Below, in pieces: positions 40,241 to 63,539 of a stretch of DNA of 64,000 nt (position 1 is the first letter of the stretch; every line of letters starts with the position of its first letter). The translations under genes were made by a program, and so were the position numbers. This DNA comes from Actinomycetes bacterium (GTDB lineage Bacteria > Bacillota > Sulfobacillia > Sulfobacillales > JAIMBI01). Where the stretch lies: assembly GCA_023565505.1 (NCBI GenBank), contig JAIMBI010000001.1:62001-126000 (forward strand). The letters run 5' to 3'. The notes below the pieces were generated by a model. That model was not told the DNA's origin. It was given only the letters and a program-made list of their open reading frames with translations, and searched no databases.

Positions 40241-40406
40241 CGACCTTCCTCCCTTCGGGGAGCATTCGGCCCGGTCGACCACGGGCCCGAGCCGGGCGGG
40301 ACGGGAGCGGCGGCGCCCCGAGGGGAAGGCCGGTCGCGGCGGTCTCCGGCTCCACGTACACCGCCCGGATCGTACCACACCGGGTCGGTTGGACCATCGC
40401 AAGGAT

Positions 40407-40435
40407 TTGCTTTTCGCCCCGGGCGGCCGTATTCT
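40407..40435 (+). promoter_or_regulatory. Promoter of the Fur-family gene
   Basis: TTGCTT (40407-40412) and TATTCT (40430-40435) are separated by 17 bases. The start of transcription should be near 40442, at the edge of a palindrome. Confidence 0.65.
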
Positions 40436-40442
40436 GTCAGGG

Positions 40443-40459
40443 AACCGGTGAGAACGGTT
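40443..40459 (+). promoter_or_regulatory. Palindrome at the start site of the fur promoter
   Basis: AACCG-N7-CGGTT is a perfect 17-bp dyad placed at the predicted +1. It differs from the AT-rich Fur/PerR box of Bacillus but is in the right position for self-repression by the regulator encoded downstream. Confidence 0.45.
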
Positions 40460-40490
40460 GATAATCCGACGGGTTCAACGGGTGGTGTCG

Positions 40491-40943
40491 ATGGTGCAGC
40501 TGGCCCGCGTCTACCGCAAGCTCGAACAAGGGTCCTTCCGGATCACGCCGCAGCGCGACCTGGTGGTCCGGACCTTTGCCAACCACCCGGGGGAACATCT
40601 CTCCGCCGAAGACGTCCAGCGTCTCATCCAGAGCGAGGCGCGCGTCGCCGTCGGCCTGGCTACCGTCTACCGGACCATCGAGTTGTTGCATCAGCTGGGC
40701 ATCCTGCAACGGATCAACTTCGGCGACGGCCGGTCGCGCTACGAGCTAAACCAGGAGGAGGTCCACCGCCACCACCACATGGTGTGCATCCGCTGCGGGC
40801 AGGTGGAGGAATTCACGGAGGACCTCCTGGACGACCTGGAGGGCCGGATCCTGGCCGAAAAAGGGTTCCAGGTGGTTGACCACGAGCTGAAGTTTTACGG
40901 GATCTGCCGGCTGTGCGGGAGAAACGGGGGGGATGGGCCGTGA
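40491..40943 (+). CDS. Fur-family transcriptional regulator
   Basis: This 150-residue regulator has a winged helix (RITPQRDLVVRTFANHPGEHLSAEDV, VGLATVYRTIELL) and a metal-binding dimerisation domain (HRHHHMVCIRCGQVEEF). Paired CIRC and CRLC motifs form the structural zinc site. The sensory metal or signal (iron, zinc, manganese or peroxide) cannot be told from sequence. ATG 40491 is chosen from the family N-terminus; its ribosome binding site is weak. The stop overlaps the next GTG start by four bases, so the regulator and the ArsC-like gene are translationally coupled. Confidence 0.9.
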   Translation: MVQLARVYRKLEQGSFRITPQRDLVVRTFANHPGEHLSAEDVQRLIQSEARVAVGLATVYRTIELLHQLGILQRINFGDGRSRYELNQEEVHRHHHMVCIRCGQVEEFTEDLLDDLEGRILAEKGFQVVDHELKFYGICRLCGRNGGDGP

Positions 40944-41299
40944 GCCGGGAGGTCCGCTACTACGGCTATCGTCGCTGAACCACCAGTCAACGGGCGAAAG
41001 CGTGGCTTTCGCAGAGAGGCGTCCCGTTCGACGAGCGGGATCTGGTGGAACACCCCTTGGACGAGGGTGAGATCCGGGAGTTGGCCGGTCGGGTCGGCGG
41101 CGTGGGGGACCTGGTGTCCCGGCGGAGCCCCGCCTACCGGATTCACCGCGAGGCCGGGCTGACGGACGACGATCCGCGGTGGTTCGCGATCCTGGCGCGG
41201 GAGCCGCGTCTGGTGCGGCGCCCCATCCTCGAAACCGATCGCGGCGTGGCGGTGGGGTTCGATCCCGACCGGTGGGCGGCCTTGTTAGCCGGGGAGTGA
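40940..41299 (+). CDS. ArsC/Spx-family protein with in-frame TGA at the catalytic cysteine: likely selenoprotein
   Basis: Read through one TGA (40976-40978), this frame gives a 119-residue protein of the arsenate-reductase/Spx family at full normal length. The N-terminus reads YYGYRR-U13-TTSQRAKAWLSQRG. It aligns with Cys homologues of the pattern Y-x-x-C-x-x-C-x-x-A-x-x-W-L, so the TGA is exactly the catalytic cysteine and the second Cys is Ser16. The rest, LVSRRSPAYR, RRPILETDRGVAVGF, is typical. A conventional call would give only an 84-residue fragment from GTG 41045. GGGGGGATGGGCC precedes the GTG start, which overlaps the fur stop. A stem-loop follows the TGA. A disrupted pseudogene is the alternative. 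Confidence 0.78.
40994..41012 (+). promoter_or_regulatory. Bacterial SECIS-like stem-loop after the in-frame TGA
   Basis: GCGAAAGC and GCTTTCGC form a perfect 8-bp stem closed by the loop GTG. The stem begins 15 bases after the TGA, and the first loop G is 24 bases after it. From memory, bacterial SECIS elements need a loop G about 16-37 bases after UGA on a stable upper stem, which this satisfies. SelB binding is an inference. Confidence 0.65.
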
Positions 41300-42514
41300 C
41301 GCGGGCGACCGGCCGACGCCGGCGGGGACCCGGAGGCCGGCGACGGCCCACAAGAGCCCCGTGAGGCCCAGGAAAGCCAGGCCCGCCCCATATCCGCCCG
41401 TCAGGTCGCGGAGCACGCCGATGGCCAACGGGCCGATGACCGCGCCGCCGTAGCCGACGGTGAGGAGCAGCCCCGCGTCCCGGCCCACGCGCTCGGGCGG
41501 GGAGAGCACGGCCGGGGCGGCCATGTCGACGGTGAGGACCAGCGCCGACATCGCCCCGACCACGAAGGTCCACAGAAACGCACCCGTGGGCCAGAGCCAG
41601 AGTCCGAACCCGGCCGCCGCAGCCGCCAAACCGGCTACGACGATGGGCCGACGGAAGCCTCCCCAGCGACGGGTGAGCGGGGGGGCCATGAGTCCGCCGG
41701 GGACCGACCCTACGGAGACCACGCTGGCCACCAGGGTGGCGGCGGCCAAATGCCAGCCGGTCGCCAGGAAGTAACTGGGCAACCAGGTGGCCAAGCCGTA
41801 GAACATGGCGCTTTGGGCCGCGAAGGTGACCATGAACGGCACCATGCCGGGCATCGGACGGGTGGGGGCGCGGTGCGCCGAGACCTGGGGCGCCGCCTCC
41901 GGCTCCGGCACGCGGATGAGTTCCCACCCCGCGGCCGCCAGGACCCCCAGGACGGCCCACTCGAGAAAGACGCCGCGCCAGCCCAGGGGCCCGGCCAGCG
42001 GCAGCAGGACCGGGACGGACAGGGCCGAGCCGAACAAGCCGCCGAGGACCAAGCCGTTGGCATAGACCGTGGTCGCCTGCGTGGCCCGGGCCCGCGCCAC
42101 GGCCTGGGCCACGCGCGCCAGAGCCGGCTGGGCGATTCCGATGGCCGCTCCGAGGAGGGCGACCGCGCCCAGGAGCACGGGTGCTCCGGTGGCCGCGGCG
42201 CGGACGGCCCCGCCGACGACGGTGGCCAGTTGCGACAGCGCCAGCACGCGCCGCGCGCCCAGGCGGTCCGCCAAGGCGCCACCTGGCAGGGAGAGCACGG
42301 CCATCAGCAAGAGGGGTAACGCGGTCAGGAGACCGGCCACGGTGGCGTCGAGGTGGAGCGCCGGCCGCATCAACGGCAAGACGGCGCCCGTCGCGACGAG
42401 CGGAGCCCGCAGGTTCACGGCGGTCAGCCACGACATGGACAGGGGACCCAGGGTCCGACGGTTCAACCACCCGCCCGTGCCCGCCGCGGGGACGTCATCC
42501 ACTTGCCTTGCCAT
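41285..42514 (-). CDS. MFS transporter, CynX/NimT-like
   Basis: This 409-residue protein has twelve hydrophobic helices and the MFS loop motif GGALADRLGARRVLAL between helices 2 and 3. Sequence around LSPPERVGRDAGLLLTVGYGGAVIGPLAIGVLRDLTG resembles the cyanate-transporter subgroup (CynX). The substrate is unknown. ATG 42514 follows GAGGAGGCGGC. The 3' end overlaps the ArsC-like gene by 15 bases, convergently. Confidence 0.87.
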   Translation of the reverse strand: MARQVDDVPAAGTGGWLNRRTLGPLSMSWLTAVNLRAPLVATGAVLPLMRPALHLDATVAGLLTALPLLLMAVLSLPGGALADRLGARRVLALSQLATVVGGAVRAAATGAPVLLGAVALLGAAIGIAQPALARVAQAVARARATQATTVYANGLVLGGLFGSALSVPVLLPLAGPLGWRGVFLEWAVLGVLAAAGWELIRVPEPEAAPQVSAHRAPTRPMPGMVPFMVTFAAQSAMFYGLATWLPSYFLATGWHLAAATLVASVVSVGSVPGGLMAPPLTRRWGGFRRPIVVAGLAAAAAGFGLWLWPTGAFLWTFVVGAMSALVLTVDMAAPAVLSPPERVGRDAGLLLTVGYGGAVIGPLAIGVLRDLTGGYGAGLAFLGLTGLLWAVAGLRVPAGVGRSPASLPG

Positions 42515-58598: not shown

Positions 58599-58612
58599 CC
58601 GAGCCTTCATCC

Positions 58613-58712
58613 GCTTATCTCTCAGCCTTGCGGCTGCAGGAGTTGGCACCTTCAGCGTGTCGCTGGGTTGCCGGGCTTCATCGGGCCAGTCCCTCCGCCA
58701 CTCTGGATAACC
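58613..58712 (-). ncRNA. SAM-I (S-box) riboswitch upstream of metX
   Basis: Read on the minus strand the conserved core is present in order: AGAGTGGCGGAGGGACTGGC, CCGATGAAGCCCGGCAACC, GGTGCCAACTCCTGCAGC and GAGAGATAAG. The P1 ends are GGTTATCC and GATAAG. S-adenosylmethionine binding should favour the terminator at 58566-58598 and stop metX transcription. Confidence 0.95.
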
Positions 58713-58756
58713 GAACGGCTATTCAGTTGGAAATCCCGGCTGGGATGTCGTAATCA

Positions 58757-61524: not shown

Positions 61525-62391
61525 ATGTTTTCCGGCCCTGTGCTAAAAGGCAAGGTGATCTTGGTGACCGGCGGCGGTACGGGATTGGGCAAGGCCATGG
61601 CCCGGCGCTTCGGGGAGCTCGGGGCGCGCCTGGCCCTGGTAGGCCGTCGCGAAGCGGTGCTGCGGCAGACGGCCGAGGAGTTCGGCCGCGCGGGGATCGA
61701 GACCTACGTGCGGCCGCTCGACGTCCGTGAACCGGAACGGGTGGCGGAGACCGTGGATGCCGTCTGGGAGCATTACGGCCGACTCGACGTGCTGGTGAAC
61801 AACGCCGCCGGGAACTTCATCAGTCCCTTCGAGCGGCTTTCCCCCCGGGCGGTGGACGCGGTGGTCAACATCGTGTTGCACGGCACGCTGTACTGCACCC
61901 TCGAAGCGGGGAAGCGGTGGATTGCCCGGCGGCACCCGGGCACCGTGCTCAACATCGTCGCCACCTACGCCTGGACGGGTTCGGGATATGTGGTGCCCTC
62001 CGCGGTGGCCAAGGCGGGCGTGCTCGCGGCGACCCGATCCCTGGCCGTCGAGTGGGCCCCCTACGGGATCCGCCACGTGGCCATCGCACCGGGTCCGTTC
62101 CCGACGGAGGGGGCGTGGGCCCGACTGGCCCCCACGCCGGAACTGGCGCAGCACTTGGAAGGGGGCGTCCCGCTGGGCCGGGTGGGGCGACCGGAAGAAC
62201 TGGCGAACCTCGCCGCCTACCTGGTCTCCGACTACGCGGCGTTCATCAACGGCGAGGTCGTCACCATAGACGGCGGGGCGTGGCTGAACGACGTCGGCTT
62301 CAACCCCCTGCGGCGCCTGACGCCGGAGGACTGGGACCGGATCCGCGAGCTGACGCGGCGCCCGACCTCGGGCGGGGAGGCGCCGGCGTGA
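61525..62391 (+). CDS. SDR oxidoreductase, 2,4-dienoyl-CoA reductase-like (second copy)
   Basis: This 288-residue protein is a paralogue of the one at 27456: TGGGTGLGKAMA, NNAAGNF, NIVATYAWTGSG, SAVAKAGVLAATRSLAVEWA and INGEVVTIDGGAWLN. It likely reduces a dienoyl-CoA or oxidises a hydroxyacyl-CoA. The C-terminal 25 residues (RRLTPEDWDRIRELTRRP) are an extension. GGGGAGGACGG precedes the ATG. The stop overlaps the start of the acyl-CoA dehydrogenase. Confidence 0.87.
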   Translation: MFSGPVLKGKVILVTGGGTGLGKAMARRFGELGARLALVGRREAVLRQTAEEFGRAGIETYVRPLDVREPERVAETVDAVWEHYGRLDVLVNNAAGNFISPFERLSPRAVDAVVNIVLHGTLYCTLEAGKRWIARRHPGTVLNIVATYAWTGSGYVVPSAVAKAGVLAATRSLAVEWAPYGIRHVAIAPGPFPTEGAWARLAPTPELAQHLEGGVPLGRVGRPEELANLAAYLVSDYAAFINGEVVTIDGGAWLNDVGFNPLRRLTPEDWDRIRELTRRPTSGGEAPA

Positions 62392-63539
62392 GCCGCGCCT
62401 ACTGGACCGCCGAGCACGAGCGCTTTCGGGACGTGTTGCGCGCCTTCCTGGACCGCGAGGCGCGGCCGTACTACGACACCTGGGAAGCGGAGCGGGAGGT
62501 GCCCCGCTCGTTTTGGCAAAGACTCGGGAAGCAGGGGTACCTCTGCCCGGAAGTGCCGCCTGAATACGGGGGGGCCGGGGCGGACTTCGGCTACGCCGTG
62601 GCCATCATCGAGGAACTGGAGCGGGTCGGGTCCGGCCTGGCGGGGATCAGTCTGCACAACGACATCGTGGTGCCGTATCTGCTGGCGTACGGGACCGAGG
62701 AGCAGAAGCGTCGCTGGTTGCCCGGCTGCGTGACGGGGGAAACCATCACCGCGGTGGCGATGACGGAGCCGGGCGCGGGGTCTGACTTGGCCGGGATCCG
62801 GACCGTCGCGCGGCGCGCGGGCGAGCACTACGTGGTCAACGGGCAGAAGACCTTCATCACCAACGGGATCCTGGCCGACCTGGTCGTCGTCGTGGTGCGC
62901 ACCGATCCCGATGCCGAGCCGCACCGGGGACTGAGCCTGCTGGTCGTCGAGCGCGACACCCCCGGGTTCACCCGGGGGCGCAAGCTCAGAAAGATCGGGC
63001 AGCACAGCCAGGACACGGCCGAGTTGTTCTTCAGCGACGCCCGGGTCCCGGTCGGGAATTTGCTCGGCCGGGAAGGCCAGGGGTTCCGGTACCTGATGGA
63101 GCGCCTCGTACAGGAACGCCTGGTGGTCGCGATCGGGGCGCAGGTGGCGGCCGAGGTCATGCTGGAAGACACCCTGGCCTACGTCAAGACGCGGACGGCG
63201 TTCGGCCGGCCCATCGGGGCGTTCCAACACGTCGCCTTCACGCTGGCGGAAGTCGCCACCGAGGTGCGCCTCGGCCGCACGTTCGTGGACGACTTGATCG
63301 GCCGCTACATGGCGGGCGACGATCTGGTGACGGAGGTCTCCATGGCCAAATGGTGGGTCACCGACATGGCCAAGCGGGTCGCCTCCCGGTGCCTGCAACT
63401 GCACGGCGGCTACGGGTACATGGAGGAGTTCCCCATCGCCCGACGCTATCGGGACGTCGCGGTGACCTCCATCTATGCCGGCACCAACGAAATCATGAAG
63501 ACCATCATCGCGCGCCGGATGGGGCTGGGCGAACGGTAG
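62388..63539 (+). CDS. Acyl-CoA dehydrogenase
   Basis: This 383-residue flavoprotein dehydrogenates acyl-CoA esters. AMTEPGAGSDLAGIRTVA and the YVVNGQKTFITNG strand bind FAD and substrate. RTAFGRPIGAFQHVAF, LQLHGGYGYMEEFPIARRYRD and YAGTNEIMKTIIAR are the other signatures. The catalytic base is the conserved Glu in YAGTNE. The GTG start overlaps the SDR stop (GTGA). It pairs with the SDR as a beta-oxidation unit. Confidence 0.94.
   Translation: MSRAYWTAEHERFRDVLRAFLDREARPYYDTWEAEREVPRSFWQRLGKQGYLCPEVPPEYGGAGADFGYAVAIIEELERVGSGLAGISLHNDIVVPYLLAYGTEEQKRRWLPGCVTGETITAVAMTEPGAGSDLAGIRTVARRAGEHYVVNGQKTFITNGILADLVVVVVRTDPDAEPHRGLSLLVVERDTPGFTRGRKLRKIGQHSQDTAELFFSDARVPVGNLLGREGQGFRYLMERLVQERLVVAIGAQVAAEVMLEDTLAYVKTRTAFGRPIGAFQHVAFTLAEVATEVRLGRTFVDDLIGRYMAGDDLVTEVSMAKWWVTDMAKRVASRCLQLHGGYGYMEEFPIARRYRDVAVTSIYAGTNEIMKTIIARRMGLGER

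Follow-up and report, generated by a model that had tools for sequence, protein, structure and literature searches.

The window analysed here, a stretch of 64,000 nucleotides from the draft genome of a bacterium of the order Sulfobacillales (Bacillota; assembly GCA_023565505.1, contig JAIMBI010000001.1, positions 62,001 to 126,000 of the forward strand), contains at 40940–41299 on its forward strand a gene for a 119-residue protein of the ArsC/Spx fold, the frame of which carries an internal TGA at the position of the family's catalytic cysteine and the start of which overlaps the stop codon of a gene for a Fur-family regulator. From the conserved sequence and the decoding machinery, both of which are observed, we infer that selenocysteine (Sec, U) is very probably inserted at codon 13 of this protein, encoded together with Fur. 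The TGA is conserved, the genome holds the machinery that decodes it, a hairpin resembling a bacterial selenocysteine insertion sequence (bSECIS) follows it and fur adjoins the gene, and these four observations together argue for a selenoprotein and against a pseudogene.

A conserved UGA codon and the machinery to decode it

The frame runs from a GTG start to a TGA stop (41297–41299) and is interrupted once, by the TGA at 40976–40978 (codon 13), as the original prediction had described. Residue 13 aligns with the catalytic Cys of the ArsC/Spx family, and the motif in which it sits (Y10-R-R-U13-T-T-S16-Q-R-A19-K-A21-W22-L23) has its flanking residues intact, with Ser in place of the second cysteine at +3 (S16); both of these points had been claimed beforehand and hold. 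With the TGA read as Cys, the product belongs to the ArsC family of Pfam (PF03960, 45 bits against a cut-off of 24), and its AlphaFold model has a mean predicted local distance difference test (pLDDT) score of 96.2. The list of open reading frames (ORFs) made with translation table 11 contains, in the same frame, only 41045–41299, from which the first 35 codons are missing, and an 84-residue fragment is accordingly what a table-11 gene caller is expected to report in place of the real gene, as had been foreseen.

Conservation was followed in a set of 41 genomes, the source genome and 40 relatives from the same family and order, in 36 of which a homologue was found. All 36, the source genome included, have the in-frame TGA, a consistency well past what chance would produce, and in every case a script places it on the catalytic residue, ahead of the A-x-A-W-L motif; the homologues of the 35 relatives are 38–54% identical to the window protein, and one relative (G002) yields two TGAs, the second of which is that gene's own stop. 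The 30 homologue frames that were extracted have clean starts and stops with no further stop between them, so that a check of the relatives for random stops and frameshifts, made for stops in these 30 frames, found none. Ratios of nonsynonymous to synonymous substitution rates (dN/dS) of 0.06–0.25 in nine close homologue pairs, chosen for this purpose, indicate purifying selection. An alignment of 26 of the 36 homologues (A1) contains 22 invariant columns, including R94 in the R-P loop. No Cys form occurs among the 36 homologues, even though the residue at +3 varies between Cys, Ser and Ala.

The PF03960 profile gives one match over its cut-off in each of the same 36 genomes; an additional match in one genome (G019) lies below the cut-off, has no motif around it and resembles a chance hit. 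A redundant Cys paralogue was considered and is disfavoured on these grounds. Of the eight weaker second matches listed for the 41 genomes, the two that were examined, in the source genome and in G028, are both frames with a TGA of their own, in UxxC, whereas the genomes with the other six may still contain a Cys paralogue. Genome G028 contains a second, divergent Spx-like frame with a TGA in UxxC (L149, G028:C7:31480-32180).

The source genome has matches well over the cut-offs for SelB (357 bits; cut-off 242), SelA (561 bits; cut-off 268) and SelD (367 bits; cut-off 125), as well as a tRNA-Sec scoring 74.3 bits against a gathering threshold of 47, to which ARAGORN assigns the anticodon tca (UCA). 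The genes selA, selB, selC and selD, for which the original prediction had proposed a search, are thus all present, and SelA, SelB, SelD and tRNA-Sec occur in the same genome, as is required of a bacterial selenoprotein. A second, weaker tRNA-Sec match over the cut-off (50.5 bits) lies on contig C48, and a tRNA scan of the window found none, tRNA-Sec being on another contig. The selD gene of the source genome (L049, G000:C41:15678-16604) likewise contains one in-frame TGA, within G-U-G-C-K; 17 nt downstream of it lies a hairpin with a loop of three nucleotides (GGC), and the energy of this hairpin by our script (-7.4 kcal/mol) just misses the -7.5 kcal/mol threshold of the bSECIS rule described below. 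Across the 41 genomes SelB is over its cut-off in 37, and the Sec gene is found in 35 of these 37 as against one of the other four, an association with a Fisher p of 0.004, or of 0.016 for genomes at least 90% complete, in both cases uncorrected for kinship. Genus g12 (G018, G026) is without SelB or SelA over the cut-off and without the Sec gene in any form.

Elsewhere in the source genome, a glutaredoxin-like frame (L150, G000:C40, about 62359–62466 on the reverse strand) has a TGA in UxxC and matches Uxx-star/NrdH-like models weakly; it is likely, on the evidence of its sequence, to be a third selenoprotein of this genome.

A SECIS-like hairpin after the UGA

The hairpin occupies 40994–41012 on the forward strand, 23 nt after the UGA, with a stem of 8 bp (40994–41001 paired with 41005–41012) and a GUG loop (41002–41004). 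The 51 nt from the TGA onwards were aligned as DNA in the 36 homologues, gap-free, which places the two sides of the stem in columns 19–26 and 30–37. The GUG loop is invariant in the aligned homologues, and standard pairs fill 81.6% of the 288 stem cells, compared with 74.3% in shuffles and 30–44% when the partners are slid by 1–3 positions. Two-sided changes are seen in 19 cells as against 5.5 in shuffles, and the covariation score is 0.239 as against 0.118, none of 500 shuffles being as high by either measure, with the proviso that covariation counts may be inflated by kinship. RNAalifold predicts the upper six pairs; the two outermost stem pairs are intact in only 17 of the 36 homologues. 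Synonymous positions in the codons of the stem region are also constrained, with the fur genes at 34 of the loci as the reference: all 36 homologues encode Ala21 by GCG (38.6% of Ala codons in the reference), 35 of 36 encode Leu23 by CTC or CTT (23.6%) and 25 of 28 encode Arg20 by CGA (15%).

The hairpin was further compared with a published bSECIS rule, given in a figure legend, which asks for a loop of 3–9 nt with G in the first two loop positions, a stem of at least 4 bp, a distance of 16–37 nt from the UGA and an energy of -7.5 kcal/mol or lower (PMC13188914). The rule was applied with our own script, which considers contiguous stems only, and against shuffles from a home-made routine meant to preserve dinucleotides. 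The window hairpin lies within all of these limits (8 bp, GUG loop, 23 nt, -10.1 kcal/mol), as do the hairpins of 24 of the 36 homologues, compared with 9.7% of shuffles. In a control set of 47 loci outside the order (16 with U and 31 with Cys, one Cys row, L078, having been excluded), the rule selects 7 of the 16 U homologues, all from other phyla (7.4% of their shuffles), and 1 of the 31 Cys homologues (7.5% of their shuffles); seven more of the U homologues from other phyla fall slightly short of it, their 7-bp stems, 22 nt from the UGA, having energies of -6.3 to -6.6 kcal/mol. A SECIS-like hairpin with compensatory changes is hence present in the region after the UGA where the original prediction had advised looking for one.

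Two other accounts of the TGA have to be weighed against the insertion of selenocysteine. If the codon were a chance nonsense mutation or a sequencing error, so that an 84-residue fragment or nothing is made, the fragmentary call from 41045 and the unexceptional energy of the hairpin region would be as expected; the same TGA would not, however, be kept in 36 of 36 homologues with no other stop in 30 frames and with dN/dS below 0.26 in all nine pairs tried, nor would covariation and synonymous constraint follow it in a genome with Sec machinery, and we have rejected this account as having a practically negligible probability. Readthrough without Sec, in which leaky decoding or a recoded tRNA would supply Trp, Cys or another residue, is in keeping with a frame that is open past the TGA and has no other interruption, but it is very improbable. 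TGA also terminates fur and the Sec gene itself and is thus still a stop codon in this genome, on which ground its reassignment was rejected; the residue that it encodes occupies the alignment position of the family's catalytic Cys; the genome has SelB and tRNA-Sec(UCA), as well as a SelD gene in which a UGA is again followed by a hairpin; and readthrough of this kind leaves a hairpin at a fixed distance unexplained.

Several observations nonetheless count against the selenoprotein reading. Stem pairs with a two-sided change number three, a value reached by 274 of 500 shuffles, and 12 of the 36 hairpins miss the strict rule, their contiguous stem being short or mismatched. The minimum free energy of the 51-nt region of the window has a z-score of -0.14, with 77 of 200 shuffles folding as well; the energy of the hairpin is thus unremarkable, and the case for it is built on the covariation, the constant spacing and the constraint on codons. 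In genus g11 (L019 in G028, L022 in G016) a gene of GGDEF/EAL type, as judged by eye from its translation, lies upstream of the Sec gene instead of fur. The Sel genes and the window, which is on contig C7, are on different contigs of a draft of 3.12 Mb that is listed as 97.6% complete with 6.62% contamination, a caveat that is answered by relatives in which gene and machinery occur together, such as G017, where a single contig carries the Sec gene, SelB, SelA and tRNA-Sec and where the Sec protein is identical to that of Sulfobacillus thermotolerans Kr1 (L029, L062). Genome G015 (96% complete) has an intact UGA gene and SelA, with no SelB over the cut-off and no tRNA-Sec over the cut-off among the 150 of 309 candidates scored, which is likely to reflect a gap in the draft, the alternative being a recent loss of Sec decoding. 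Lastly, G007, the sole genome of family f2, and G039 have SelB, and no homologue was found in either. Selenocysteine insertion at codon 13, as first proposed, is supported in spite of these points by the machinery, the TGA in all 36 homologues and the compensatory changes in the hairpin.

The fur gene and the relatives beyond the order

The fur gene (40458–40943, forward strand) encodes 161 residues from a TTG start, with an internal ATG at 40491 as the alternative, and its product matches PF01475 with 126.6 bits; its best NCBIfam model is NF051892, at 164.4 bits, below the cut-off of 220. The TGA stop of fur (40941–40943) and the GTG of the Sec gene overlap in the sequence GTGA (40940–40943). 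In 34 of the 36 homologues the Sec gene is immediately preceded by a fur gene, whose stop is separated from the UGA codon by 10–106 nt. Among the neighbours compared in 15 order loci (L059–L073), several of which end near the gene, Fur is the most constant, occurring in 14, followed by an amidohydrolase 2–3 kb upstream in 7, the window's reverse-strand gene before fur in 2, a MoaA-like gene in 1 and an MFS gene in 0. When the window Fur was compared by tblastn (E ≤ 1e-4) with the 80 loci listed by a wider scan, 14 of the 15 loci from the order gave a match; the flanks available for the remaining 65, all outside the order, gave none, although a distant Fur could escape such a search. Fur is likewise not found near the gene in seven further loci (L142–L148, E ≤ 1e-3), L142 having a flank of only 394 bases upstream. 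The pairing of fur with the Sec gene appears to be characteristic of this order. At L142 (395–727), from a relative in the same phylum, the 19-nt hairpin sequence is the same as that of the window and the short flank has no Fur match; judging from this locus, the hairpin may be older than the linkage to fur. A scan of 40300–41500 for promoters and terminators returned nothing, with low power in a genome of 70% GC.

The wider scan yielded at least 80 loci. Of the 63 that were translated, 32 have Cys and 31 have TGA, the latter including 15 from the order; because the number of loci is a lower bound and Cys is obligatory in one of the two search patterns, the ratio of U to C is no census, and the order loci partly repeat the 41-genome set. 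Among the matches listed, the members of the order include Sulfobacillus thermotolerans Kr1, S. acidophilus AMDSBA3 and S. benefaciens AMDSBA4, and the TGA forms outside the order include those of Chloroflexota (Dehalococcoidia, SAR202) and of a Syntrophaceae bin. Within the same phylum, TGA was seen by eye in 40 of the 119 matching genomes out of 398 searched (3 of them in the order), with at most 11 candidates scored per genome and the TGA position checked in five outside the order. A tree of 73 sequences, 32 of the 36 homologues among them, places these 32 genes in one group (support 80/84) that has no Cys member and broadly tracks families and genera; the tree is built on few columns, and its deeper forks are therefore uncertain.

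Two loci met in the course of this comparison are recorded in their own right. A Cys form from Chloroflexota (L104, 2308–2634) falls inside a Sec group in the tree and is, from its sequence, a possible case of a Sec-to-Cys change. An ArsC-like sequence in a Flavobacteriales record (L101) is nearly that of the Dehalococcoidia locus L094 and probably belongs to a mis-binned contig. Within the window itself, a SAM riboswitch (S box, RF00162, 90.7 bits) is located at 58612–58713 on the reverse strand.

Candidate functions and comparison with known systems

Among the 36 homologues, 23 have Cys at +3 after Sec, nine have Ser and four have Ala. In the 23 with UxxC a selenylsulfide could form, whereas 13 of the 36, the window protein included, contain no Cys at all, and Sec is their only Sec/Cys residue. 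With no second chalcogen residue, an internal disulfide or selenylsulfide of the Spx type is impossible in these 13, and Sec would therefore act alone, through a selenenic step or a mixed selenylsulfide step with an outside thiol. In the mechanism that we propose for the two-gene unit, consisting of fur and then the gene for the ArsC/Spx-fold selenoprotein, UGA codon 13 would be decoded as Sec by SelB and tRNA-Sec(UCA) under the direction of the hairpin at 40994–41012. Positioned where helix 1 begins and close to the invariant Arg in the R-P loop, the selenolate would attack oxidised thiols or a low-molecular-weight disulfide, and the selenol would be recycled by an outside thiol or by a thioredoxin/glutaredoxin system. 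Made together with Fur, the protein would couple iron control to redox sensing or repair. The fold and the active-site chemistry suggest that it may function as a one-site (monoselenol) glutaredoxin-like reductase or sensor, to which we give about an even chance among the functions considered. Against it, the bacillithiol synthase BshC is found in 0 of the 41 genomes, which makes bacillithiol unlikely as the low-molecular-weight thiol partner.

A possible, if unlikely, alternative is that the protein is an Spx-like partner of RNA polymerase that forms with Fur a joint pair for iron and redox control. Among NCBIfam models the window protein scores best with TIGR01617 (Spx/MgsR), to which all 26 aligned members show a match (best E 7.4e-26), but the window protein just misses the cut-off of that model (68.7 against 75.05 bits) and fails the Spx-specific models NF009885 (32.1 against 152) and NF002459 (50.3 against 123). 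Solved chains of Spx are the closest by sequence (81.5 bits, profile) and also by Foldseek E-value, among them the complex with the RNA polymerase alpha-subunit C-terminal domain (alpha-CTD), 1z3e, at a TM-score of 0.80; the fold nevertheless does not discriminate between the candidate functions, TM-scores being as high for YffB (0.79–0.82) and for the Vibrio cholerae 'arsenate reductase' 3f0i (0.83). Residues G52, R60 and R92 of Spx correspond to G54, R62 and R94 in the window protein; among the 26 members, the first column has G in 23, the second K or R in 25 and the third R in all 26 (roles as given in PMC2801614, that of R92 partly inferred). K62, on the other hand, falls on P64, in a column that is Pro in 25 of the 26, and the K62E substitution is reported to impair activation by Spx (PMC2801614). 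The C10-x-x-C13 pair of Spx is absent from the window protein (UxxS), and the second chalcogen residue is missing from 13 of the 36 homologues. The Sec protein is the only PF03960 match over the cut-off in these genomes, a point in favour of the Spx reading. Disulfide stress in Staphylococcus aureus links the Spx switch to Fe(II) supply, in that loss of the switch under diamide leads to Fe(II) depletion and raises the expression of Fur-regulon genes (PMC12822559); by analogy a pairing of Spx with Fur would be sensible, which proves nothing for the present case. It is rather unlikely that the protein is a selenium-based regulator in the full sense, that is, an Spx-like polymerase partner with a single-Sec switch that needs no Cys, encoded with Fur, acting as the order's principal Spx-type protein and making iron and stress control respond directly to selenium supply and to the redox state.

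The original prediction of a reductase is less well supported where it is taken in the sense of arsenate. The same selenoprotein would then be an ArsC-type reductase of arsenate or another oxyanion, which would fit metal-rich acidic habitats; the order includes species of Sulfobacillus, a genus known from mine and bioleaching sites. The ArsC domain match (45 bits to PF03960) and the chain labelled as such, 3f0i, which has the highest TM-score, are in favour of this function, and known Sec relatives are called arsenate reductases in surveys. The arsenate reductase model TIGR00014, however, scores 26.6 bits against a cut-off of 106.05 and does not support it, the best models and solved sequences being those of Spx; the Escherichia coli ArsC structures rank 19–25 by Foldseek E-value, with TM-scores of 0.63–0.72; and the gene adjoins fur, with no ars gene recognised among the five window proteins profiled. 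We regard an arsenate reductase as improbable.

Proteins of this general kind have been on record since 2005. The Sargasso Sea data contain 14 sequences of a Sec 'arsenate reductase' with UxxS (PMC1088965), the Global Ocean Sampling (GOS) data 77 sequences of ArsC 1 with UxxS and 42 of ArsC 2 (cd03032) with UxxC (PMC2398784), and Desulfotalea psychrophila an ArsC-like selenoprotein (PMC1794560); a 2022 review gives such families as predicted (PMC9312934) and a 2026 review includes them as well (PMC13188914). The earlier statement that Sec forms had been reported in metagenome surveys was therefore correct, and so, as far as the available accounts of the Sargasso Sea, GOS and Desulfotalea families go, was the claim that a Fur partner had not been described, these accounts making no mention of Fur. 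The window gene shares with these families the ArsC assignment and Sec in UxxS or UxxC, by comparison of motif and domain names, and shares with the Sargasso Sea set a SECIS-like hairpin reported after the UGA (PMC1088965). The gene of the order differs from them in being a single, vertically inherited copy per genome in an order of Bacillota, in lying beside fur and in having Cys, Ser or Ala at +3. Among the papers listed by searches of open-access literature, none links selenoproteins with Spx, Fur or Sulfobacillus, as judged by title or displayed abstract.

The NCBIfam model NF041106 (ArsC_rel_Se_1, 'ArsC family (seleno)protein') is likewise ArsC-related and allows Sec, and all 26 aligned members show weak similarity to it (E ≤ 1, best E 7e-11). 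The window protein misses it, at 16.8 bits against a cut-off of 85, and even the best member is far below that cut-off, an E-value of 9.2e-10 corresponding to 39.1 bits; no match to the model was found in the source genome at E ≤ 0.001. YffB (PA3664, 1rw1), a reductase of the ArsC family, has the same length class (114 residues) and fold (TM-scores 0.79/0.82), and presumably has Cys where the window protein has Sec; the model NF008107 ('ArsC family reductase') is matched by the window protein with 26 bits against a cut-off of 121. The best solved relatives are the Spx chains of Bacillus subtilis (1z3e, 3gfk, 7f75), to the G52, R60 and R92 of which the window protein has equivalents. It differs from them in having Sec for C10, Ser for C13 (13 of the 36 homologues have Ser or Ala there) and Pro for K62, and in its length of 119 residues against 131–132 for these chains, the Streptococcus mutans chain 3l78 having 120.

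These comparisons bear on annotation as well as on function. Table-11 ORF calls shorten the gene here and, through the same TGA, in most genomes of the order, Sulfobacillus included, and the order's gene offers selenoprotein annotation a clear subfamily that model NF041106 misses. The homologues also constitute a natural experiment on the purpose of Sec, in which the selenol has been kept where the second thiol is dispensable. Should the protein prove Spx-like, it would be, as far as is known to us and with no dedicated search made, the first selenium-switched regulator of transcription; should it prove a reductase, it would tie selenium to iron control through its conserved fur neighbour. The kind of protein is thus known from earlier surveys, and what appears to be new is a fur-linked subfamily that is nearest to Spx models and in which Sec is the sole chalcogen residue in a third of the members.

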